Below, in pieces: positions 1,471 to 30,969 of a DNA stretch of 30,969 nucleotides. How positions within the stretch are numbered: the first letter of the stretch is position 1; the number at the start of each line of letters is the position of its first letter. The stretch comes from a virus. The DNA is taken from IMG/VR virus record IMGVR_UViG_3300017788_000107, positions 1 to 30,969 of that record. One strand, 5' to 3'. The notes beneath the pieces are model-generated. The model had not been told where the DNA came from and ran no database searches. It worked only from the letters and a program-made list of their open reading frames with translations. The translations under genes and the position numbers were made by a program.

Positions 1471-3948
1471 ATGAGTTATAAGATATTATTTGTTACACCG
1501 CATCTATCAACTGGTGGATGTCCTCAATATTTGTTGAAGAAAATACAATTGTTGAAGGACATCCACCAAGTTTACTGTGTAGAGTATCATGATTATGGAG
1601 AATGGTTCAATGTACAAAAGACACAAGTGCGTGATACATTGAAGTCCAACTATTTTGTTTTGAAGGACAATAAGCTTGAGTTGGTGAACATAATAAGCAC
1701 TGTGCAACCCGACATTATTCATTTTGAAGAAATGCCGGAATATTTTATGTCGGACGATGTTACACGTAAGATATATGTGAATGACCGCAAGTATTTTATT
1801 GTTGAAACGTCACATGATAGCAGTTTTAATGTAGGATCCAAACGATTTTTTCCTGATAGGTTTGTGTTTGTGAGTGAGTATCAAAAGCGTGCGTTGAGTT
1901 CGTTGCAAATATCATCGCATGTTGTGGAGTATCCTATTTTAAAGAAATCACGAGCAATTGATAGAAATAGTAAGTTGGTTGAAATGGAGTTGAACCCCGA
2001 TTTGTTTCATGTGGTTAATGTGGGATTGTTTTCTCCTAGAAAAAATCAATCGGAAATTATTGAATATGCTCGAAAGATGATCAAAGAACCGATTCAGTTT
2101 CATTTTGTTGGCAATACTGCTGGTAATTTCAAGGATTATTGGGAACCGTTGTTGAAAGATTTGCCAAGCAATTGTAAGGTGTGGGGTGAACGTAAAGATG
2201 TGGATCGTTTTTATGAATGTATGGATTTGTTTTTGTTTACCAGTCGTGGACACAACAATGACAAAGAAACCAGTCCTATTGTAATACGAGAAGCTATTAG
2301 TTATCAGATACCGTCGTTGATATATAATTTGCCGGTATATTTGAATATGTATGACAAATATAAAAACATATCATATTTGAACAATGATTTGAATGTGAAT
2401 GTTGATACAATACGTTCGTATTTAAAAAAAAATGAAATAAGTTCGAATGCGGTGATTAAAAACAATGTTGCGTTGCATGCTTATGTAGTATCAGCATATC
2501 CCAACACCAATGTTGGTGAATCTACTACTATACAGTGTTTAAATGCGTTACAAAACTCGCATAAAATACTAACCACACATTATAAAGAAAACCATGAAAA
2601 GTTTAATAATGTTGCTGACACTGTTGTTTTTGATGAAAACAATCCTATAATCAAACATACATTTTATTGCAACTATTGGTATACCGGAGCAAATTTTCGT
2701 TGTGATTTGAATTTGAGAGCCAATAACAACAACAACTATCATGGACTTGCTGTGTGGACCAATTATCAAAACGGCATTCGTAAATCCAAAGAATTTGGAT
2801 ACAAATATAGTGTATGTTTAAATTACGATATTGTTTTGCATTCAGATGATGTAAAGAGTGTTGAAGAAATGGTGAATCAATTGGAAACCAATCAACGCAA
2901 AGGATATTTTATACATGAGAAAAAGGACGAGGGAGATACATTAAAGACCGTATTTTTTATAATTGACAACGATTACTTTTTATCAAAGTTTGATGTTGTA
3001 ACAAACGAACAACAATATAATGCTAGTATCAAAAAGAACGAAAGTCCGTCAAATAGTCTTGAAAATTATGTGTATTATTGTTTGAAATCGTGTTTGAACG
3101 ATTTGCAACTTACTACACAAACTGAAGATATATTGTTTCCCAAAAGCAATTTGAATTCATTTTCTTGTGTTGAATATTTTTCTGTGATACCAAATTCAGA
3201 CAACAAAACTTTTGTGGTATGGAAGAGTTCTAGCAACACAAACGACAATAAAAATGTGGTAATTGATATATCTGAAAACGATAAGGTTATAAACAAAATA
3301 GGATACTTACAAAGAGATTCTTATTGTTTTTATCATACAGTTGATTTTAAACCAAATTGTTCTTATGCAGTTAATTTGCGTGAATATAATTCCAATTGTG
3401 AATTGATCAACAAAAATGTTGTTGAGTTTGATAATATATCAAAGTTGAATGATGCTGGAAAATTTACGATGTTAAACACAAATGTTTCTTTATCTATAAA
3501 GACATCATCCAAGTTCAATTTGCATCATTATAACTTTAAAAACGAATCATTGGCATATGTTTCCAACTTAGTGGAAAAGGGTTTGATATATAGATCGCAT
3601 TTGAATTGCAATGAAGTTGATATTTTTAAAACGATAAACAATTATAATGAAAGTCATATCATTTTTAAAAATGTTAAGTTATCTGTGACGGTGGATGAGT
3701 TTATGTGTACTATACATAATGCAAGAGAATATATGTATGATAACGATTTGATACTTGTTGCATTAGAATCCTCTGGAGGTGCTGTTGGTGGTATTTCTAA
3801 TTTTTATAAGTCAAAAGGTCACAGACCGGTATCTGCATATTTAATCAACAACAACTATCTTTCTACATTTAAAACAATTGGTTCTATGAGTGAACTGAAT
3901 AGTTATTTGAAAGGATATTGTGTAAATTCAGTTATTAATATATTATGA
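1471..3948 (+). CDS. Large multidomain glycosyltransferase (GT4-like N-terminal domain)
   Basis: 825 residues. The N-terminal half (about 1-315) looks like a GT-B, GT4-family glycosyltransferase. It has an opening like KILFVTPHLSTGG, a nucleotide-sugar domain beginning VVNVGLFSPRKN (about 181-192), and an E-x7-E motif at E266 and E274 in KETSPIVIREA. A second region starts near residue 332 (VALHAYVVSAYPNTNVGES) and has an acidic NYDIVLHSDD segment at about 451-460 that could be a GT-A-type site, but I cannot assign it to a family. The C-terminal ~265 residues are beta-rich and unrecognised. The start has no Shine-Dalgarno. The stop overlaps the next gene's start by four bases (ATGA), so the two are coupled. 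The acceptor is unknown; the upstream repeat-rich fibre is a natural candidate. Confidence 0.75.
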   Translation: MSYKILFVTPHLSTGGCPQYLLKKIQLLKDIHQVYCVEYHDYGEWFNVQKTQVRDTLKSNYFVLKDNKLELVNIISTVQPDIIHFEEMPEYFMSDDVTRKIYVNDRKYFIVETSHDSSFNVGSKRFFPDRFVFVSEYQKRALSSLQISSHVVEYPILKKSRAIDRNSKLVEMELNPDLFHVVNVGLFSPRKNQSEIIEYARKMIKEPIQFHFVGNTAGNFKDYWEPLLKDLPSNCKVWGERKDVDRFYECMDLFLFTSRGHNNDKETSPIVIREAISYQIPSLIYNLPVYLNMYDKYKNISYLNNDLNVNVDTIRSYLKKNEISSNAVIKNNVALHAYVVSAYPNTNVGESTTIQCLNALQNSHKILTTHYKENHEKFNNVADTVVFDENNPIIKHTFYCNYWYTGANFRCDLNLRANNNNNYHGLAVWTNYQNGIRKSKEFGYKYSVCLNYDIVLHSDDVKSVEEMVNQLETNQRKGYFIHEKKDEGDTLKTVFFIIDNDYFLSKFDVVTNEQQYNASIKKNESPSNSLENYVYYCLKSCLNDLQLTTQTEDILFPKSNLNSFSCVEYFSVIPNSDNKTFVVWKSSSNTNDNKNVVIDISENDKVINKIGYLQRDSYCFYHTVDFKPNCSYAVNLREYNSNCELINKNVVEFDNISKLNDAGKFTMLNTNVSLSIKTSSKFNLHHYNFKNESLAYVSNLVEKGLIYRSHLNCNEVDIFKTINNYNESHIIFKNVKLSVTVDEFMCTIHNAREYMYDNDLILVALESSGGAVGGISNFYKSKGHRPVSAYLINNNYLSTFKTIGSMSELNSYLKGYCVNSVINIL

Positions 3949-6053
3949 GAATTTGTCAAGTTACACCGGGATTGATTTCTATTCCTCCAAACGGATGGGG
4001 TGCTATTGAAAAGATTATTTGGGAATACAAATTGTGTTTAGAAAAAGCAGGTCACACATGTGATATTTTGTATTTGGATCAAGTAAAGTCTGCTGATTAT
4101 GATGTGGTTCATATACATGTTGCTAATCTTGCATTATTGGCACACGAACGTGGTATACCATATGTATTTACCATGCACGATCATCATACAGAGGTATATG
4201 GCAACACATCTGCATTATATAAGCAGAACCGTGATGCTATGGAAAAGTCGTTAATATCGTTTGTACCCGCACAACATTTGGTACCATATTTCAACAGTAA
4301 ACGCGTAAAGTATTTGCGTCACGGTGTCAATAGTTCATTTTTTACATATGGAACACCACATAATAAAAAGCACAAACTATTGTGTGTTGGGCGAAATGGT
4401 TTGTCACAAAATATGTCATTTGACCGTAAGGGTTTTGTGTATGCTATTGAAGCTGCACGTAAACACGATTTGGAAATAACGATTGCTGGTCCAAGTGCTA
4501 ACAAAGAATTTTTTGAAAAGAACAGTGACTATAAACCATATGACAAGTTGAATTTTATTTATGATTTGAACGAAGAACAACTTGTTAAGGTGTATCAGGA
4601 TCATACCATCTTTTTGCATCCATCTTCAGTTGAAGCTGGTCATCCCAATTTGACATTGATGGAAGCATTATCATGTGCTCTTCCCGTTGTAGCTACATAT
4701 GATGCAGATGCATTGCCTGGCATGGTCAAGATTGAACGTAGTGTAGATTCGGTGTATGATGGAATACATACTGCGATGCAGAATTACGTAGAATTGCGTA
4801 GACTGGGTGTAGAGTATGCTCAAAACAATGACTGGAACAATGTGGTTGCTGATATAATAAGTGAGTATCGTCGAGTTGATGAATATCGTATGACCAATGA
4901 ATTGAATGAGATATATGATATTACAACCGGTGGCAATAAACAAAAACAAAATGCTAGAATAGAGTTGGATTGTACGGCCGGTTGTCAGGTTACTATTACT
5001 GGTGGAGATCCTTCATTAAAGTATAATTTCAATTTTATTGATGATAGTACCGGCGATAGTTTGTTTTCTGGTACCATGAATACCAATGAATGGTCACGTT
5101 GTACAATCAAACGTTATGTGCCATATCGTGTCAAAATCAATTGTTCGGAAAATGTAATTTTGGATGAAAAAATCAATTTAAAAGACAAAAACGTTCTTAT
5201 TTGTTTGGATACTAAGTCGTTGGGTGATTGTTTGGCGTGGTTTCCGTATGTTGAAGAGTTTCGTAAAACACATCAATGTAAGATGTTTTGTTCAACCAAC
5301 TGGGACGAGTTGTTTAAAAACAATTATCCAGAAATAACCTTTTTGCCGTTGAATTGGTCGGGTAATTTTTTTGCAATTTACAACATTGGCTGTTATCCTG
5401 ATAAACAACGTTCGTTGTTTTCGTATAAAGAAGTTACGTTGCAACGTTTGGCATCATCTATATTGGGATTGAATCATGTGGAAGTTGTGCCCAATACAGT
5501 TGTTTTGAATAAAGATCGAAGAATAGCTGAAAAGTATGTGTGTTTTGGTACACATTCTACGTCACAGGCTAAGTTTTGGAACAATCCCAATGGTTGGCAG
5601 GATGTATGTAACTATTTGAACAGTATTGGTTTGAAGCCGGTATTGGTTCAAAAAGAATCACATCCGGGATTTGAAGGTTGTATCAACATGTCTGGTGAGG
5701 CGAGCATACATGATACTATAAATTTATTGTATAACAGTGAATTTTTCATAGGGTTAGGGTCTGGATTATCATGGTTGGCGTGGTCGTTACGTAAGCCGGT
5801 GATATTGGTTAGTGGATTTAGTTTGCCTATGAGTGAGTTTTATACTTCATATCGTGTTATTAATACAAATGTATGTCATGGTTGTTGGAATAGTCATGAT
5901 TTTGACAAAGGCAACTGGAATTGGTGTCCAAAACATGAAAATACACCGCGCATGTTTGAATGCAGTGCGCAAATTTCTTCACAGATGGTGACGAATCAAA
6001 TTGATAAATTGGTTGTAAACGAAAAGATATTTACAGACAAACAAAATCAGTAA
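3945..6053 (+). CDS. GT4 glycosyltransferase fused to a TibC/AAH-like autotransporter heptosyltransferase
   Basis: 702 residues in two enzymatic parts. Residues 1-330 are a GT4 domain: N-terminal MRICQVTPG, a GWGAIEKI loop, and EAGHPNLTLMEALSCALPVV at 230-249. Residues about 335-692 match the bacterial autotransporter heptosyltransferase family (TibC, AAH). A beta-rich N-terminal piece is followed by LDTKSLGDCLAWFPYVEEFR (421-440), FCSTNWDELF (448-457), FGTHSTSQAKFWN (534-546), FIGLGSGLSWLAW (601-613) and LVSGFSLPMSEF (621-632). Cysteines 644, 647, 661 and 673 reproduce the C-x2-C...C...C cluster that binds iron in TibC. Known family members transfer heptose from ADP-heptose to Ser/Thr of repeat-containing autotransporters. 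The gene overlaps the preceding glycosyltransferase by 4 bp. Family call is strong; donor and acceptor in this phage are inferred. Confidence 0.85.
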   Translation: MRICQVTPGLISIPPNGWGAIEKIIWEYKLCLEKAGHTCDILYLDQVKSADYDVVHIHVANLALLAHERGIPYVFTMHDHHTEVYGNTSALYKQNRDAMEKSLISFVPAQHLVPYFNSKRVKYLRHGVNSSFFTYGTPHNKKHKLLCVGRNGLSQNMSFDRKGFVYAIEAARKHDLEITIAGPSANKEFFEKNSDYKPYDKLNFIYDLNEEQLVKVYQDHTIFLHPSSVEAGHPNLTLMEALSCALPVVATYDADALPGMVKIERSVDSVYDGIHTAMQNYVELRRLGVEYAQNNDWNNVVADIISEYRRVDEYRMTNELNEIYDITTGGNKQKQNARIELDCTAGCQVTITGGDPSLKYNFNFIDDSTGDSLFSGTMNTNEWSRCTIKRYVPYRVKINCSENVILDEKINLKDKNVLICLDTKSLGDCLAWFPYVEEFRKTHQCKMFCSTNWDELFKNNYPEITFLPLNWSGNFFAIYNIGCYPDKQRSLFSYKEVTLQRLASSILGLNHVEVVPNTVVLNKDRRIAEKYVCFGTHSTSQAKFWNNPNGWQDVCNYLNSIGLKPVLVQKESHPGFEGCINMSGEASIHDTINLLYNSEFFIGLGSGLSWLAWSLRKPVILVSGFSLPMSEFYTSYRVINTNVCHGCWNSHDFDKGNWNWCPKHENTPRMFECSAQISSQMVTNQIDKLVVNEKIFTDKQNQ

Positions 6054-9666: not shown

Positions 9667-9695
9667 TTGACATTTTTATTGTTTTGTGATATTTA
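9667..9695 (+). promoter_or_regulatory. Candidate sigma70-like promoter before endonuclease gene
   Basis: TTGACA (9667-9672), 17-bp spacer, then TATTTA (9690-9695, three of six matches to TATAAT). Initiation would fall near 9702, just before the GAGGAG ribosome binding site. The -35 is perfect but the -10 is weak. The region lies between the sheath terminator and the endonuclease, so a private promoter is sensible. Confidence 0.4.
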
Positions 9696-9717
9696 TCAAT
9701 CAGATGAGGAGTATTGT

Positions 9718-11220
9718 ATGACTGAAAGAGGTAAAAAAATTAGAGATGCGTTTTTTAAAAAGTATGGAGTTTATCATCCGTCACAACTTCCTGAAGTTAA
9801 AGCTAAAATTAAAGAGAAGCGTGCAAATGGTTCATATGACAATATGGTGGATAATATGAAAAAGACGCTCCAGAGTAAATACGGCAGTGAAAGTTATAAT
9901 AACATTGAAAAAAGTAAAAGAACTAAGTTAGAAAAGTACGGTGACGAAAACTATAACAATAGAGAAAAAATGGTTGAAACTAACCTTTCAAAATACGGAA
10001 TGAAAGTTTCACCAAATACTTTGAAGTGCACCAAAGAAAGATCTGCATTTGGCTCAATTGGTTTCAAATCAAAAAAATTCAAAAATTTTCTTGATGTTAA
10101 TGGTGTAAAAAATGTTTCTCAATTGAAAGATGTTAAAAAAAGTCTTCGTGATAAAAAAATACATCAAATGTTGACGAGTATTTTTGATGGTTCTCGTCTT
10201 GCTGGTGTTGTGACGCCGTTATTTAACAAAGAAGAATATACAGGCAGTGAATATGATAAACTGTATAAGTTTAAATGTTGTACGTGCGGTTCTGAGTTTT
10301 GTGATAATTTATATTCTGGCAATATACCACGTTGTTTGACTTGTTATCCGCATAATAAATTTAAATCTTCAATTGAAACTGAGATATTGGAGTTTTTTAC
10401 TTCACATAACATTGAAGTTAAACAACATGATCGAACAATTTTAGATGGATATGAGGTTGATTTGTATATTCCGTCTTTAAGTTTAGCAATTGAATGTGAT
10501 GGTGTTTACTGGCACAGTGAAATTGCAGGCGGTAAAAATAAAAAATATCATTTAGATAAAACACAGCGTTGCTCTCAAAAAAACATACAATTGTTGCATA
10601 TATGGGACTGGGAATGGAGATGCAAAACCAATATTGTGAAAAGTATTTTTCTGAGTAAAATTGGTAAATCCAGAAAAATTTATGCTCGAAATTGTTCGAT
10701 TGCAACCATTTCAGATTTCGATAAATCTTCTTTTCTTATTGATAATCACATACAAGGAGACGATAAATCATCGATAAAAATTGGGTTGTTTCATGAAAAC
10801 AAATTGGTTTCTGTTATGACGTTCGTCAAATCAAGATACGATAAAAAATATGAGTTTGAACTTTCAAGATTTTGTACTTTAACCGGAACAAACATAATTG
10901 GAGGAGCATCAAAGATGTTTAAGTTTTTTATCAAAAACTATAATGCAAAATCTGTAGTCACATACAGCGATAAACGTTTGTTTTCTGGAAATGTTTATAA
11001 CAATATTGGCATGACACAATTAACTGATACACCTCCGGGTTATCACTATTTTCATAAAAACAATGGAACTCCATTGAACCGCATTCATTTTCAAAAACAC
11101 AAACTTTCAAAATGTTTATCAATTTTTGATCCAAATTTAAGCGAATGGCATAACATGCAAGCTAATGGATATGATAGAATTTGGGACTGTGGGCACTTTA
11201 AATTTGAATATATTAGATAA
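9718..11220 (+). CDS. Vsr-like (EDxHD-type) free-standing homing endonuclease, copy 1
   Basis: 500 residues from the ATG at 9718, chosen because a strong SD (GAGGAG, 6-nt spacing) precedes it. The N-terminal ~95 residues hold four spaced KYG units (KYGVYHPS, KYGSESYN, KYGDENYN, KYGMKVSP), a repeated motif typical of phage endonuclease DNA-binding regions. Paired cysteines at about 187/190 and 206/209 suggest a zinc ribbon. The nuclease core follows at about 220-300: EVDLYIP, AIECDGVYWHSE and LLHIWDWEW, as in Vsr-like homing endonucleases such as I-Bth0305I. Residues about 320-500 form a C-terminal domain ending GYDRIWDCGHFKFEYIR. The gene sits between sheath and tube genes, normally adjacent in T4-like phages. 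It is a paralogue of the minus-strand gene ending at 12711. Nuclease call is strong; its target site is unknown. Confidence 0.85.
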   Translation: MTERGKKIRDAFFKKYGVYHPSQLPEVKAKIKEKRANGSYDNMVDNMKKTLQSKYGSESYNNIEKSKRTKLEKYGDENYNNREKMVETNLSKYGMKVSPNTLKCTKERSAFGSIGFKSKKFKNFLDVNGVKNVSQLKDVKKSLRDKKIHQMLTSIFDGSRLAGVVTPLFNKEEYTGSEYDKLYKFKCCTCGSEFCDNLYSGNIPRCLTCYPHNKFKSSIETEILEFFTSHNIEVKQHDRTILDGYEVDLYIPSLSLAIECDGVYWHSEIAGGKNKKYHLDKTQRCSQKNIQLLHIWDWEWRCKTNIVKSIFLSKIGKSRKIYARNCSIATISDFDKSSFLIDNHIQGDDKSSIKIGLFHENKLVSVMTFVKSRYDKKYEFELSRFCTLTGTNIIGGASKMFKFFIKNYNAKSVVTYSDKRLFSGNVYNNIGMTQLTDTPPGYHYFHKNNGTPLNRIHFQKHKLSKCLSIFDPNLSEWHNMQANGYDRIWDCGHFKFEYIR

Positions 11221-12710: not shown

Positions 12711-14279
12711 TTATGTTATAAAGCGCCATTTTCCGTTGCCACAGTCCCAAATACGATCATAACCATTGTTTTTCATATTTTGCCATTCTGTTATATTTTC
12801 GTCATAGGTTGGCAAAATAGTTTTCAACTTATGCTTTTGAAATCCCATACGATTTTTTAATGAACCGTAAGAATCAAAAATATACCAGTAATTTGGGCTT
12901 GTGCATTCAACAAATGCAAAGCCCAACTTAGAATATATCTTACCGGAAAAATATCGTTTATCGTTATAAGAAACAATACTTTTAGGATGATAATTTTTAA
13001 TAAAATAACTGAACATTTTTGAAGCTCCGCCTATGATAGAATGATTCAACTTGTTACAATAGCGGACCATTTCCCATTGATATTTTTTATCAAATCTAGA
13101 TTTTCCAAATGTCATCAAAGAAATTAGATCGTTGTTATAAAACAAGCCAATTTTTATAGAACTACTTGACATTCCTTGCATATGATTGTTAACAAGAAAA
13201 TTTTCAATTGTTTTATTGCATGTTATTAGTTTGAGTTCACATTGACGTGCATATACTTTAATACCGTTGACACCAAGTGTATTTTTCAAAACAGACTTTA
13301 CAATTTCTTGTTTTTGATACCATTCATTTTCAAAAATATGAATCAATGAAATATTCTTTGATTCACAGTTCACTGTTTTGTTATAATGATAAACTTTGTT
13401 TTTTGCTCCCATTATTTCACTGTGCCAATACAAACCGTTACATTCAATAGCAAGATTTGCTGAAGGTATATAAATGTCCAGTTCTTTAGGTTTCAAAACA
13501 GTTTTATTGTTTGTTTCGACCAAAACGTTTTCACCAACCAACGATTTAACATAATCATATATTTCTTTTTGAAAATATGACATGTTTTGTTTATCACAAT
13601 TTACGCAACGCAATGGATTGCCATTGTTTAGATTGTAAGAATCTACATTATTACAGCGTTTACATTTGAATTTATATTTTACAATTGACAAATCCTTTAA
13701 TACTCCAAAATAATTGTCGGGTTTAAACATTGGAATAAAATTAACAAATCTGTCATGTGACAATATTCTATCAAACATGGTTTTTACATGTTCCAATTTA
13801 AAGTTAGTTGACTGTGATGCATGTGATTTTCCGTATTTTGCCAAACATGTTTGTTTATATTGCACTTTATATTCGTCAGTTTTAACAAAATTATCTACAC
13901 CATATTTGTTTAAACATGTTTGTTTCATCTGCGATGTATTTCTGTAGTTTTCATCGCCATGACGACTTTTTGTTGTTTTTTTACCTTTTTCAACAAATTC
14001 TTCTTTTTGTAGAGCATGTTCAACGCCGTACTTTTCCATCATTGATTTTTTAAAGTTGTTGACCACCGATTGTGTTTTCATAGGATGATCAACACCGTAT
14101 TTTTCAAAAAAAGATTTGAGTTGTGAGTCTTTTGCCAACAATTTTACAGACGGTGAGTTTTGACTACATTTAACTGAACAAAACCGCTGATTTCGTTTTG
14201 CATACTTTACAGAAAACGTAACCGAACATTGTTCACACACGTTGTCAACCGCAATTGGATTTTTTCTTGGACGAGCCAT
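12711..14279 (-). CDS. Vsr-like (EDxHD-type) free-standing homing endonuclease, copy 2
   Basis: 522 residues, the only clear minus-strand gene. It opens with a zinc-finger-like element (C15, C18, C34, C38). KYG/RHG units follow at about 60-151 (KYGVDHPM, KYGVEHAL, RHGDENYR, KYGVDNFV, KYGKSHAS) and a second zinc ribbon (C206, C209, C225, C228). The nuclease core is ELDIYIP (266-272), AIECNGLYWHSE (277-288) and LIHIFENEW. The C-terminal domain (about 340-522) parallels copy 1, down to the ending GYDRIWDCGNGKWRFIT. The two proteins are clearly paralogous but diverged. The copies face each other and bracket the nucleotidase and nucleotidyltransferase genes. The orientation opposite to the late genes suggests its own promoter, and a candidate is seen upstream. 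Confidence 0.85.
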   Translation of the reverse strand: MARPRKNPIAVDNVCEQCSVTFSVKYAKRNQRFCSVKCSQNSPSVKLLAKDSQLKSFFEKYGVDHPMKTQSVVNNFKKSMMEKYGVEHALQKEEFVEKGKKTTKSRHGDENYRNTSQMKQTCLNKYGVDNFVKTDEYKVQYKQTCLAKYGKSHASQSTNFKLEHVKTMFDRILSHDRFVNFIPMFKPDNYFGVLKDLSIVKYKFKCKRCNNVDSYNLNNGNPLRCVNCDKQNMSYFQKEIYDYVKSLVGENVLVETNNKTVLKPKELDIYIPSANLAIECNGLYWHSEIMGAKNKVYHYNKTVNCESKNISLIHIFENEWYQKQEIVKSVLKNTLGVNGIKVYARQCELKLITCNKTIENFLVNNHMQGMSSSSIKIGLFYNNDLISLMTFGKSRFDKKYQWEMVRYCNKLNHSIIGGASKMFSYFIKNYHPKSIVSYNDKRYFSGKIYSKLGFAFVECTSPNYWYIFDSYGSLKNRMGFQKHKLKTILPTYDENITEWQNMKNNGYDRIWDCGNGKWRFIT

Positions 14280-14970: not shown

Positions 14971-15765
14971 ATGTATACATGCATTCGTTGTAAAATGGAA
15001 TTTAAATCGTATGATGCTTTACGTCGTCATGTTGGAAGAATTCATAAAGTTGCGTCTGTTGATTTTTACGTAGAGAATAATTTAAATGGACAATGGCCAG
15101 AATGTAAATGTGGGTGTAAACAACGAGTTAAATGGTCACATGGTAAAAAAGGATTTGTAGATTATTGTCAAGGACATCAATCCAGAGTAAATAATAACTG
15201 GGGACATAATAAAAACGCACAGTTGAAATCAGCTGAGACTCGTAGACAACAATATCAATCGGGTGATAGAAAGGTGTGGAATGACGGACAAACCAAAGAT
15301 ACAGATGATAGAGTAAAAAAGTATGGACGTATCATATCTGAACGTTTTTCTATAGGTCGAAAAATTGAATATTCTCAAAGGATGACTAATAATAGGTTAA
15401 ATGGAATAATTCCTACACTAACAAAGTCTGAACACCCTCAATGGAAAGGTGGAATCTCTGAAATTAACGTGTTAGCCAGATCTTCCACTAAATTATATAA
15501 AGAGTGGAAATATCCTATTTTAATTCGTGATGGGTTCAAGTGTACTAAATGTTGTAGCACCGAACAATTACATGTACATCACGATGACGAAACAATGAGT
15601 AATATCGTTAAAAAACATGTTTTGATAGATGTAGATGTAATAGATTTTGAGTTAAAAAAGACAATAACAGAAAAAATTGTAGAATATCATATAACTAATA
15701 ATGTATCTGGAATTACATTATGTTTAAAGTGTCATGGCGAACTACACCCATCTTTAAATTTCTAA
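14971..15765 (+). CDS. HNH homing endonuclease with N-terminal C2H2 zinc finger
   Basis: 264 residues. The N-terminus is a C2H2 finger: C4-x2-C7, 12 residues, H20-x4-H25. A second Cys-rich patch (PECKCGCKQRV) follows at about 48-58. The middle is basic and contains SEHPQWKGG, typical of phage HNH homing enzymes. The C-terminal nuclease is FKCTKC, then QLHVHHDDE, then ITLCLKCHGELH, giving two zinc-ligand CxxC pairs and the catalytic HH of the beta-beta-alpha-metal fold. It lies between the tail tube gene and a small coiled-coil gene, and it reads out of the tail-tube terminator. Translation probably depends on melting that hairpin. It is likely mobile; the cleavage target is probably in or near the tail-tube gene of related phages. 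Confidence 0.85.
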   Translation: MYTCIRCKMEFKSYDALRRHVGRIHKVASVDFYVENNLNGQWPECKCGCKQRVKWSHGKKGFVDYCQGHQSRVNNNWGHNKNAQLKSAETRRQQYQSGDRKVWNDGQTKDTDDRVKKYGRIISERFSIGRKIEYSQRMTNNRLNGIIPTLTKSEHPQWKGGISEINVLARSSTKLYKEWKYPILIRDGFKCTKCCSTEQLHVHHDDETMSNIVKKHVLIDVDVIDFELKKTITEKIVEYHITNNVSGITLCLKCHGELHPSLNF

Positions 15766-24479: not shown

Positions 24480-24776
24480 ATGAGATATGATACGTCTGTT
24501 AATATAAAAAAGAGATGGGATGGCAAAAGATATTTTGGCACACGAATATATCCATCTATACCATTGGATTCCAGCGACATATATATTGTATCCAATGAAA
24601 CAGATTCGCTGGACAATCTTGCGTTTAAGTATTATAAGAATCCATCGTTGTGGTGGGTGATTGCGCAAGCCAACAACATTGGAAAAGCCAGAATGGCGGT
24701 TGAACCGGGATTGCAATTGAGAATACCGACAAAAATAAATTCAATTGTCAATAACTACAAGTTGTTGAATACATAA
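24480..24776 (+). CDS. Baseplate wedge protein, T4 gp53-like with LysM-like fold
   Basis: 98 residues. The N-terminus has YFGTRIYPSIPLDSSDIYIV, then DSLDNLAFKYYKNPSLWWVI, AQANNIG, and a final PGLQLRIP. This is the LysM-like pattern (Y-x-x-P-x-LWW-x-IA-x-AN-x-I...P-G-x-x-L-x-IP) found in short baseplate proteins at this position. T4 gp53 is longer, so this is a compact form consisting of the LysM-like core. It probably joins wedges around the hub rather than binding peptidoglycan, although LysM folds can do so. The start follows the previous stop by 9 bases, with no SD. Confidence 0.85.
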   Translation: MRYDTSVNIKKRWDGKRYFGTRIYPSIPLDSSDIYIVSNETDSLDNLAFKYYKNPSLWWVIAQANNIGKARMAVEPGLQLRIPTKINSIVNNYKLLNT

Positions 24777-28241: not shown

Positions 28242-29726
28242 ATGACAAATCGACGTAATTTTTTTATACAATCCGGTCTACTTAGCACCGCTTCGTTTGG
28301 ATTAGATTCATTTGCAGTCAACCACAAACATCAAACGCCAGTTGAAAAGGTATTCCTTAAAAACAAGTTTGACCCAACTAAAGATCCTAAACGTATTCGT
28401 AAGAGTTTTTATGATTTAACAGACGAAGAACTTCGTAACCTATGTAAGGCAATTGGCTATATGCGTAATGACATGCCTACCGACAGTCCTCTCCATTGGG
28501 AGAACTATGGTAGACAACATGCACATCATTGTACCGAAGCCGGTGACGGTAATCCTCAGGTTCATTGGAGTTGGCACTTCCTCCCATGGCATAGAGGGTA
28601 TGTCTATTTCCTAGAACGTATTCTTGCCAATATTCTCACCACCAAACTTAACATCGACGGTTCCAAGTTTGCATATCCATACTGGGATTGGAGCACGCAT
28701 CCTGAAATTCCAAACACTCGTCTGCGTCAACAGGCTGGACTTGCAAGTCCATTGTTTGGTTATGACCTAACTCAGGAAGATATGGTCAACGTTGATAATC
28801 TAGGGTTTGACAACACAGCATTGTATGATGGTAATCGTGGACCCACCATATTGAAACCCAAGATGGATCCTGATAATGAATTGACCCAAGATTCTAAAGA
28901 TCACATTAAGGAAGCATTGTATTATACCAGTGCGTCGTACATTAACCAGATTCTAATGGCTCCGTTTGAACAGTTTGGCGGGGGATCAACAATCGACAGA
29001 AAGACGGGCCAAGGTCTTTTGGAACAAGGACCACACAACGACGGTCATGATTGGGTTGGAACCCGTATTGGCAAAAACAGAACCATGGGAACATTACGAT
29101 ATGCTGCTCTTGATCCTATTTTCTACATGCACCATGGTAACATTGATCGTATATTCTCATTGTATACACAACCAATGCCGGATCTTGATGGTCCGTGGGG
29201 TCAACAAGTTTATGAATACACTGACATTGACGGTTCGTGGGTCAGGGTCAGCGTCAAAGATATCATGACTGGTATCAGCAATAATATCAGCTATGGTGAA
29301 TCTCCATTGATGGCCAAGATTGCACACCGTCCAAGTAATGTAACCAGAAACATTGTGGTTCCAGTTCAAAAGGTTATTGAAAACGATCCTGTTAGCGTCA
29401 CAATTTCGTCCACCATTGTGAAAAAGATTATTACAAGCAAACTTGCTTTGATGGATGTTAAATTAGGTACGATTAACTACACTGGAAAGTATAAAATTAA
29501 TATCACATTGAAAGATGCAAATGGAGTTGATACAACCGTTGGACGTATCAGAATGTTGGAAGGCGAACATCGTAAAGATATACAGCCAAATTCGGAACAC
29601 GTTTTCAGTGTGGCATTGAAGACCATCACTGCCCCTCCGACTGGAGAAGTGGTATTAACATTTATTCCTCCAAAAAAGAATGTTAAACTTAAAATAAAGA
29701 CGTTGGAATTTATGTCAGTTGAGTAA
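28242..29726 (+). CDS. Tyrosinase / polyphenol oxidase with twin-arginine-like leader
   Basis: 494 residues. Copper site A: H93 with C97 (H-x3-C, as in the His-Cys thioether of plant polyphenol oxidases), then H108 and H117 in VHWSWHFLPWHRGYVYFLER. Copper site B: H265 and H269 in GPHNDGHDW, and H297/H298 in DPIFYMHHGNIDRIF. All six ligands are present, so the enzyme should oxidise phenols or o-diphenols to quinones. After the core comes a DWL-like segment (DIDGSWVRVSVKD) and a beta-rich C-terminal domain like the KFDV domain of plant enzymes, which can cover the active site. The N-terminus MTNRRNFFIQSGLLSTASFG resembles a Tat leader. Codons look richer in C-ending forms than the neighbours. 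Enzyme call is strong; its role in a phage is unknown. Confidence 0.93.
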   Translation: MTNRRNFFIQSGLLSTASFGLDSFAVNHKHQTPVEKVFLKNKFDPTKDPKRIRKSFYDLTDEELRNLCKAIGYMRNDMPTDSPLHWENYGRQHAHHCTEAGDGNPQVHWSWHFLPWHRGYVYFLERILANILTTKLNIDGSKFAYPYWDWSTHPEIPNTRLRQQAGLASPLFGYDLTQEDMVNVDNLGFDNTALYDGNRGPTILKPKMDPDNELTQDSKDHIKEALYYTSASYINQILMAPFEQFGGGSTIDRKTGQGLLEQGPHNDGHDWVGTRIGKNRTMGTLRYAALDPIFYMHHGNIDRIFSLYTQPMPDLDGPWGQQVYEYTDIDGSWVRVSVKDIMTGISNNISYGESPLMAKIAHRPSNVTRNIVVPVQKVIENDPVSVTISSTIVKKIITSKLALMDVKLGTINYTGKYKINITLKDANGVDTTVGRIRMLEGEHRKDIQPNSEHVFSVALKTITAPPTGEVVLTFIPPKKNVKLKIKTLEFMSVE

Positions 29727-29785: not shown

Positions 29786-29812
29786 ATCAACATGATATAT
29801 TGTTATGTTGAT
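29786..29812 (+). other. Inverted repeat containing the DNA polymerase start codon
   Basis: ATCAACAT (29786-29793) and ATGTTGAT (29805-29812) are perfect 8-bp inverted copies around an 11-nt loop. The right arm begins with the likely start ATG (29805-29807). It may act as a translational operator. Confidence 0.5.
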
Positions 29813-30969
29813 GATAAAGTTGTTGACAGAAATTGAAAAGCACATAGTTCGTAGAGACATAATATTGGATATTGTGCCGTTGTCTAATGATTTTCATGTT
29901 GCATCTATTGGTTTGTGTTTGGTTTTGATATATTGTGTTGATGATCAACAGTTTTTTTCAATACCTATTGATTCAACGGATCATGGTTTGAATTACAACA
30001 AAGACGATGTGTGTAAAATGTTGAACAAAGTGCGTGGACGTATATTTTGCATCAACAAAAAGAAAGTGTTGCATCAGTTTGAGTTACAAAAACTGTATGA
30101 TTTGTCGGTCATTATGTTTTTTGAGACCGGTGAAATTGTAGAAGATGACGAATACAACACGACATCACATACTTTTTTCAAACACAAGTATCACAATCAT
30201 AAAGAATTAAACAAAATTATACCTAGCAACAATCACATTTCCAAGTTTTTGGATATATGTAAAGATGTTGTGGTGTATATTCGTAAAAATTATGAAGCTG
30301 CATATTACGATATCAACAATTTGCTGGTAGAAACGTTGCAAAACATTGAAAAACAAGGAATATATGTCAATATTGATCAATTCAATCAACATTTTTCTGA
30401 TAAAACGCATTTGGTGTCAGAAAATAGGGTATATACTGAATACAATATTTTTACTTCGACCGGAAGACCTAGCAATCGTTTTGGCGGTATCAATTTTTCA
30501 GCACTAAACAAAGAAAATGGGTGTCGAAAGAGCTTTGTTTCACGACATGGTGACGATGGTGTATTGATAATGTTTGATTATAGTGCGTATCATCCACATA
30601 TTATTGCAAAACTGGTCAATTATGTGTTTCCAAACAAGGTAAACATATATCAGTATTTGGGCCAATATTACTTCAAAACCGAAAATCTTTCCGAAGATCA
30701 GTTGAAGAAGTCGAAAACGTTAACGTTTCAACAATTGTACGGTTCTATCTCGGAAGAATACCTAAAAATACCGTATTTTGCGAAGATTTCTGAATATCTT
30801 GATCATCGGTGGAAGTTTTTCAACGAATATGGATATATTGAAACGCCAATTTTCAAACGGCGTATTACCAACAAGCATTTGGTAAATGCAAATCCGGCCA
30901 AATTGTTCAATTACATACTTCAAGCGTCTGAAACTGAGTATTCGATGGAAAGTTTGATTGATGTAAACA
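29805..30969 (+). CDS. Divergent family A DNA polymerase, 5' part (3' end outside window)
   Basis: 388 residues to the window edge, still open. The start could be the ATG at 29805 or 29811; an in-frame stop at 29793-29795 limits it. Family A motifs: FTSTGRPSNRFGGINFSAL (216-234), motif A FDYSAYHPHIIAKL (257-270) with catalytic D258, motif B KKSKTLTFQQLYG (301-313), and an ILQASETE segment (371-378) equivalent to QGTAAD. The N-terminal ~150 residues are where a 3'-5' exonuclease should be, but no DxE is visible (LDIVPL at 21-26), so proofreading may be lost. Motif A has H263 where E. coli Pol I has the Glu steric gate, and H265 in place of the usual Arg. Role: phage genome replication. Confidence 0.85.
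   Translation, partial: MLMIKLLTEIEKHIVRRDIILDIVPLSNDFHVASIGLCLVLIYCVDDQQFFSIPIDSTDHGLNYNKDDVCKMLNKVRGRIFCINKKKVLHQFELQKLYDLSVIMFFETGEIVEDDEYNTTSHTFFKHKYHNHKELNKIIPSNNHISKFLDICKDVVVYIRKNYEAAYYDINNLLVETLQNIEKQGIYVNIDQFNQHFSDKTHLVSENRVYTEYNIFTSTGRPSNRFGGINFSALNKENGCRKSFVSRHGDDGVLIMFDYSAYHPHIIAKLVNYVFPNKVNIYQYLGQYYFKTENLSEDQLKKSKTLTFQQLYGSISEEYLKIPYFAKISEYLDHRWKFFNEYGYIETPIFKRRITNKHLVNANPAKLFNYILQASETEYSMESLIDVN

Follow-up and report, generated by a model that had tools for sequence, protein, structure and literature searches.

A 30,969-nucleotide stretch of viral DNA, here called the window, carries a gene for a tyrosinase beside the tail genes of a contractile-tailed phage, and relatives of this gene are found on 19 further viral contigs. 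Tyrosinases are phenol-oxidising copper enzymes, like the one that browns apples. We read the gene as single-gene phage cargo, mobile across phage lineages, whose product would be an exported, lid-inhibited pro-tyrosinase that oxidises phenols outside the cytoplasm; we put the probability of this reading at about 0.6. The enzyme class itself is well supported. There are no expression, activity or localisation data.

Enzyme family, active site and domain plan

The tyrosinase ORF opens with ATG and has no internal stops, and in a Pfam scan PF00264 covers residues 86–310 and scores 122.5 bits (cut-off 22.6; Table 1). Its GC (0.41) and GC3 (0.37) lie inside the range of the remaining window genes. 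Upstream is a block encoding tail sheath, tube, hub, tape measure and a gp25-like wedge, and the giant tail sheath gene marks the contig as that of a contractile-tailed phage. The tyrosinase gene is flanked by an ORF of 107 aa that matches no PHROG and by a DNA polymerase gene. The initial annotation had described a phage-encoded, full-length tyrosinase of plant-PPO-like kind, situated after the baseplate and before the replication genes, and both the gene and its place are borne out. No copper chaperone or phenol pathway adjoins the gene, and therefore the substrate cannot be read from the neighbours. A scan for promoters and terminators around the gene gave nothing above chance level.

Table 1. 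Positions of the tyrosinase gene, its parts and the phage genes around it in the window.
Feature	Position	Strand	Basis
Phage pro-tyrosinase gene	28242..29726	+	494-aa ORF; PF00264 E 4.2e-35; relatives in 19 viral contigs
Putative Tat export leader, residues 1 to about 27 (MTNRRNFFIQSGLLSTASFGLDSFAVN)	28242..28322	+	RR motif in relatives; cleavage site inferred
Tyrosinase core, residues about 43–345	28368..29276	+	PF00264 86–310; profile match to aurone synthase, residues 37–381
CuA site H93, H108, H117 and C97	28518..28592	+	Clade-invariant; three His also in seven outgroup tyrosinases
CuB site E261, H265, N266, H269, D270, L285, H297, H298	29022..29135	+	All clade-invariant
C-terminal beta jelly-roll domain (putative lid), residues about 366–494	29337..29723	+	Model; Foldseek match to MdPPO1 C-terminal domain
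Downstream DNA polymerase gene, runs off window	29805..30969	+	phrog_17, E 2.8e-7
Giant tail sheath gene, 1100 aa	6304..9606	+	phrog_23, E 2.8e-70
Baseplate wedge gene, upstream structural block	24480..24776	+	phrog_7145, E 8e-12

Alignment showed no variation at the copper ligands H93, H108 and H117 together with H265, H269 and H298, either among the viral copies or in seven bacterial tyrosinases used as outgroup, while C97, E261, N266, D270, L285 and H297 are invariant within the clade. The full set of ligands and the H-x3-C pair, completed by C97, had been recognised at the outset, when a non-functional copper site was named as grounds for abandoning the assignment; the site is intact in sequence. 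C97 is predicted to form a Cys–His thioether. By analogy (PMC10526336, PMC11608171), E261 would be the water keeper, N266 and D270 the activity controllers, L285 the residue at the gatekeeper position and H297 the seventh histidine. A polar residue at HisB1+1 and the water-keeper Glu have been proposed to activate the water that deprotonates monophenols, and CgAUS1 gained tyramine activity when Asp was introduced at HisB2+1 (PMC11608171). Because the clade has Glu, Asn and a small Leu, as in the tyrosinase of Verrucomicrobium spinosum (vsTyr), and Asp at HisB2+1, these residues favour a genuine tyrosinase over an enzyme that is only a catechol oxidase, with catalysis itself an inference.

A twin-arginine motif (R4-R5 in the window copy) and a hydrophobic stretch open all full-length viral relatives, so that the twin-arginine-like leader first noticed in the window proves to be no peculiarity of that copy. 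Among the 372 ORFs of the compared contigs, the Tat-like pattern was matched by tyrosinases only. Export of the tyrosinase through Tat is well supported as a prediction, on the strength of the motif alone; export in vivo is inferred. In one relative (L013, 9872–11368) the Tat leader ends with a possible lipobox (GTTAC), so that this copy may be a membrane-anchored lipoprotein.

A first structural model (11 rows, pLDDT 44.5) was too poor to use and was replaced by a second, whose confidence is moderate (pLDDT 57.6 on average and mostly 55–86 in the C-terminal part). Over its whole length this second model matches latent plant PPOs and the Ralstonia and Hahella tyrosinases with Z of 11.8–12.7 (12.7 to 6els, 12.6 to the bacterial zymogen 7xio, 12.1 to 4z14). 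Foldseek gave E 7e-14, with matches to latent PPOs and also to the isolated C-terminal domain of MdPPO1 (6elt/6elv), and the clade profile aligns residues 37–381 continuously to residues 37–375 of latent aurone synthase. The C-terminal part had no Pfam match, neither PPO1_DWL nor PPO1_KFDV was found at E<=1 in the viral and MAG copies, and a sequence profile of the C-terminal domain had no matches in the PDB; this domain is linked to latent PPOs through structure only. The C-terminal domain proposed in the initial annotation is thus present as a beta-rich domain in the model. The DWL-like segment claimed with it fails as a Pfam assignment and stands only in so far as the aurone synthase alignment and the matches to whole latent PPOs uphold it. 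The domain carries an invariant H453-x-F455. F453 of V. spinosum tyrosinase has been termed an 'outsourced gatekeeper' (PMC10526336), and by analogy F455 is a candidate for the same role, as a plug. That the domain is an inhibitory lid, and hence that the enzyme is latent, is inferred.

These features can be set against known tyrosinases. vsTyr (8BBQ/8BBR) shares with the phage enzymes the Tat leader, the core and an inhibitory C-terminal jelly-roll extension, works without a caddie protein, and has the water-keeper Glu, Asn at HisB1+1 and Leu at the gatekeeper position; it differs in being encoded by a cellular gene and in having Asn at HisB2+1 (PMC10526336), where the phage clade has an invariant Asp. 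The phage proteins qualify as vsTyr-type zymogens by Tat motif and C-terminal jelly-roll extension, export and proteolytic activation being inferred. Under the clade profile vsTyr scores 61 bits, below the plant PPOs, so that its membership in the phage clade is not shown.

Latent plant PPOs (aurone synthase 4Z11–4Z14, apple MdPPO1 6ELS, tomato 6HQI) provide the best whole-length structure matches (Z about 12–12.7) and the best single-domain sequence matches in the PDB, and have the H-x3-C topology in common with the phage protein, but are only about 13–25% identical to it in structural alignments. Plant PPOs have chloroplast targeting and the Pfam DWL and KFDV domains. These two domains are not matched in the phage clade, which therefore falls outside the plant PPOs so defined while possessing a structural equivalent of the C-terminal domain. 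Plant PPOs carry a bulky Phe gatekeeper (PMC10526336), where the phage clade has Leu. 

'Plant-PPO-like' does not mean plant-derived, because bacterial zymogens such as vsTyr share the plan of leader, core and lid and a Verrucomicrobiota MAG holds a member of the clade. The tyrosinases of Ralstonia (7XIO) and Hahella (8B74) are full-length structural matches (Z 12.6 and 11.9); they are cellular and show 16–19% identity in structural alignments. Streptomyces MelC1/MelC2 and Bacillus-type tyrosinases have the type-3 copper core in common with the phage enzymes but lack the lid domain. The clade reaches only 37–44 bits under the MelC2 NCBIfam model, against a cut-off of 450, and no caddie gene was seen adjacent to the phage tyrosinase gene, so that the MelC-with-caddie type is not met on either count.

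Viral carriers and cellular relatives

Pattern-plus-tblastn scans of IMG/VR with a growing alignment returned 6, then 12, then 19 further contigs with tyrosinase relatives, about 46–73% identical and lying in at least five gene contexts. An independent scan with the CuB region only found 18 contigs, all within the 19, and the clade set therefore looks near complete in IMG/VR. Once near-copies are collapsed, about 14 distinct sequences are left, the window's included. Most records are fragments. By ORF comparison the carriers were sorted into unlinked contexts: the window (A); L002, L003, L008 and probably L006, with PhoH, a small nuclease and outer-membrane-like barrels, and in L002 and L003 baseplate genes as well (B); L004, with a clamp loader (C); L005, L009–L012, L030, L031, L033 and L034, of which L034 lies on a contig of 297 kb (D); L007 and L013 (109 kb), with a common primase-like protein and ribonucleotide reductase (E); and L028 and L032 (F), L029 being a possible further context. 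Tail sheath genes occur on three records (window, 109-kb and 297-kb), Terminase_6C on the 109-kb record only, and baseplate wedge genes on the L002 contig. The sheaths of the window and the 297-kb contig are 48% identical over 1113 positions, from which the two phages would be distant kin; among named phages, the nearest sheaths to that of the window are those of Microcystis phage Mel-JY01 and a 484-kb uncultured phage. GC ranges from 0.31 to 0.52 across the viral groups, and groups that differ in GC may have different hosts.

The tyrosinase is the sole gene common to all contexts. The window and L002 tyrosinases are 71% identical, yet no other window gene compared matched the L002 contig, and seven window structural genes gave nothing there even at E below 1. 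This is best read as movement of the tyrosinase gene between phages, with the qualification that both contigs are fragments. In five tyrosinase pairs dN/dS was 0.09–0.21 (Nei–Gojobori), which demonstrates purifying selection; dS is saturated for distant pairs, so the exact strength of selection is not shown. The gene accordingly fits the description of phage cargo, a host-type gene in bona fide phage genomes that is kept by selection, its effect on host metabolism being inferred.

Cellular relatives were sought with one genome-contig pattern scan and with profile searches of 388 Verrucomicrobiota genomes, 293 genomes of the order to which the MAG belongs and 398 Pseudomonadota genomes. The only full-length cellular member found is that of the Verrucomicrobiota MAG (L014), one genome of the 388. 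Its contig is apparently cellular, given the cytochrome c/HEAT and alpha/beta-hydrolase neighbours and a GC of 0.62. The 293 genomes of its order held no further member, bar one weak distant match, and the 398 Pseudomonadota yielded only a fragment (L015) and weak distant matches. Tyrosinases of any kind were present in 2 of 195 Verrucomicrobiota, and plasmid tyrosinases are only 22–34% identical. We provisionally regard the clade as rare in cells, since profiles covered those groups only and divergent genes may escape the pattern scan. The L015 fragment (533–829 of Fonsibacter MAG contig JALRAW010000008.1) comprises 78 N-terminal residues, is 91% identical to L003 and abuts ordinary chromosomal genes; it probably reflects chimeric assembly of this public MAG, or else is a recent remnant.

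A phylogeny against bacterial enzymes, among the checks first suggested, was built from 15 viral tyrosinases and L014, with eight further tyrosinases of bacteria for comparison. With 100/99 support it separates the viral sequences together with L014 widely from these eight. The inner order and the root are unresolved, and we therefore make no claim on the direction of transfer between phages and the MAG. One carrier (L009, 7407–7751) encodes a PEP-CTERM protein (VPEPSTYALFAG...) that scores above the cut-off, so that a cell-surface sorting signal of host type is here borne by a virus. The PEP-CTERM signal occurs in Verrucomicrobiota, among others. That the hosts are Verrucomicrobiota-like is a lead and not proof, resting indirectly on one MAG relative and this one protein.

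None of 50,697 named phage records contained a tyrosinase, PHROGs has no family for that of the window, and the BFVD viral structure library holds no viral tyrosinase fold, its matches reflecting the beta domain only. In the open-licence literature we found no published phage or viral tyrosinase or PPO, which does not exclude an earlier report; a 2024 tyrosinase review leaves viral tyrosinases unmentioned, and the passages on polyphenols in PMC12724203 and PMC6784887 report no viral tyrosinase. The enzyme family is old; the virus-borne, exported and mostly viral clade appears to be new.

Proposed role and alternatives

We propose that the carriers, large tailed phages, make a type-3 copper oxidase as a pre-pro-enzyme. 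The Tat machinery of the infected, probably Gram-negative, host would carry the protein, folded and inhibited by its lid, out to the periplasm or the cell surface, where displacement or cleavage of the C-terminal lid would free the dicopper centre. With O2 this centre would convert monophenols and catechols to o-quinones, both within the infected cell's envelope and, once the cell has lysed, around it. Substrate and benefit are inferred: the likely gain would be a changed chemistry outside the cytoplasm, through detoxification or polymerisation of phenolic or humic compounds or through protection that melanin-like products give the infected cell, with surface modification against other phages and pigment or redox protection as further options. 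The gene probably came from, and would serve in, Verrucomicrobiota-like hosts. The lack of a conserved partner gene fits an enzyme that requires no caddie protein and nothing beyond copper, O2 and a phenol. It is a more tentative idea, and one we hold to be doubtful, that this is a virus-dedicated clade of exported pro-tyrosinases with which large phages quinone-tan, melanise or detoxify the infected cell's envelope and what lies around it, an undescribed extracellular phenol chemistry.

Other uses of an active enzyme can be imagined. Tyrosinases are able to oxidise protein tyrosines, and the window gene adjoins the tail and baseplate block, so that the enzyme might oxidise tail or capsid tyrosines to DOPA and quinones and cross-link the particles during virion maturation. 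The Tat leader of every full-length copy would, however, take the enzyme out of the cytoplasm, where particles assemble, and several of the other contexts are non-structural, with genes for replication, for nucleotide metabolism or for outer-membrane-like proteins. The initial annotation had listed three possible roles, namely oxidation of phenolics in humic-rich water, pigment or quinone production in the periplasm and cross-linking of virion proteins; the last of these has become improbable because of this conserved leader. The export signal also agrees with a use in which quinones formed in the lysate or at the cell surface would alter receptors or envelope proteins, or would be toxic to neighbours or rival phages. 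Mobility from phage to phage would suit such a contested trait, and in two groups proteins predicted to resemble outer-membrane barrels are encoded a few kb downstream, only one of these proteins having a porin match, a weak one; but these adjacent proteins are conserved in some groups and not in all, direct evidence is absent, and we consider control of superinfection or competitors unlikely, if less so than virion maturation.

It might also be asked whether there is a phage enzyme to explain. A host contaminant or chimera had been named from the start as what would overturn the assignment, and misassembly around a tyrosinase does occur, since the MAG fragment L015 is itself probably chimeric. 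At the level of contigs this possibility was rejected: there are 19 further viral contigs from several lineages, with sheath, terminase and baseplate genes among the phage hallmarks on several of them. Contamination and decay into a passenger gene are alike opposed by GC and GC3 in the window range, the intact site and dN/dS of about 0.1–0.2, and we give them hardly any credence. The protein could instead be a non-catalytic, hemocyanin-like binder of O2 or copper, in that mollusc hemocyanin units have the same fold and produce strong matches by summed repeats; single-domain scores, the structure match and the architecture nevertheless favour latent PPOs, the catalytic Glu/Asn pair is intact and the gatekeeper position holds a small Leu, which makes this very improbable.

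If the exported pro-tyrosinase works as we propose, phages would directly drive an O2-dependent oxidation of phenols beyond the cytoplasm, and this reaction has ties to wetland carbon storage (PMC9454253) as well as to the formation of pigments. From the conserved leader and lid follow clear predictions of export, latency and activation. A mostly viral clade, rare in the cells searched, also raises the question of why viruses keep a gene that is mostly missing from their hosts.

Other features of the carrier genomes

In two phage groups the region a few kb downstream of the tyrosinase gene encodes signal-peptide-like, beta-barrel-like outer membrane proteins (L002 3129–3878, L003 5066–5776, L008 9757–10515, L005 7056–7775, L009 15316–16032, L034 14757–15470); only that of L009 matches the TorF porin family, and weakly. 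The window tail sheath far exceeds the 496 positions of its PHROG, and phrog_23 aligns, as separate stretches, to its two ends only, which implies a large internal insertion; the insertion is also present in the similarly long sheath of the 297-kb phage. Three HNH/homing-endonuclease-like genes (window 9667–11220, 12711–14279 and 14971–15765) lie between or within the tail genes from sheath to hub, an unusually high load. Near the tail genes, window positions 3945–6053 encode a two-domain glycosyltransferase with GT1-type and heptosyltransferase-like matches, which perhaps serves surface or virion glycan modification.
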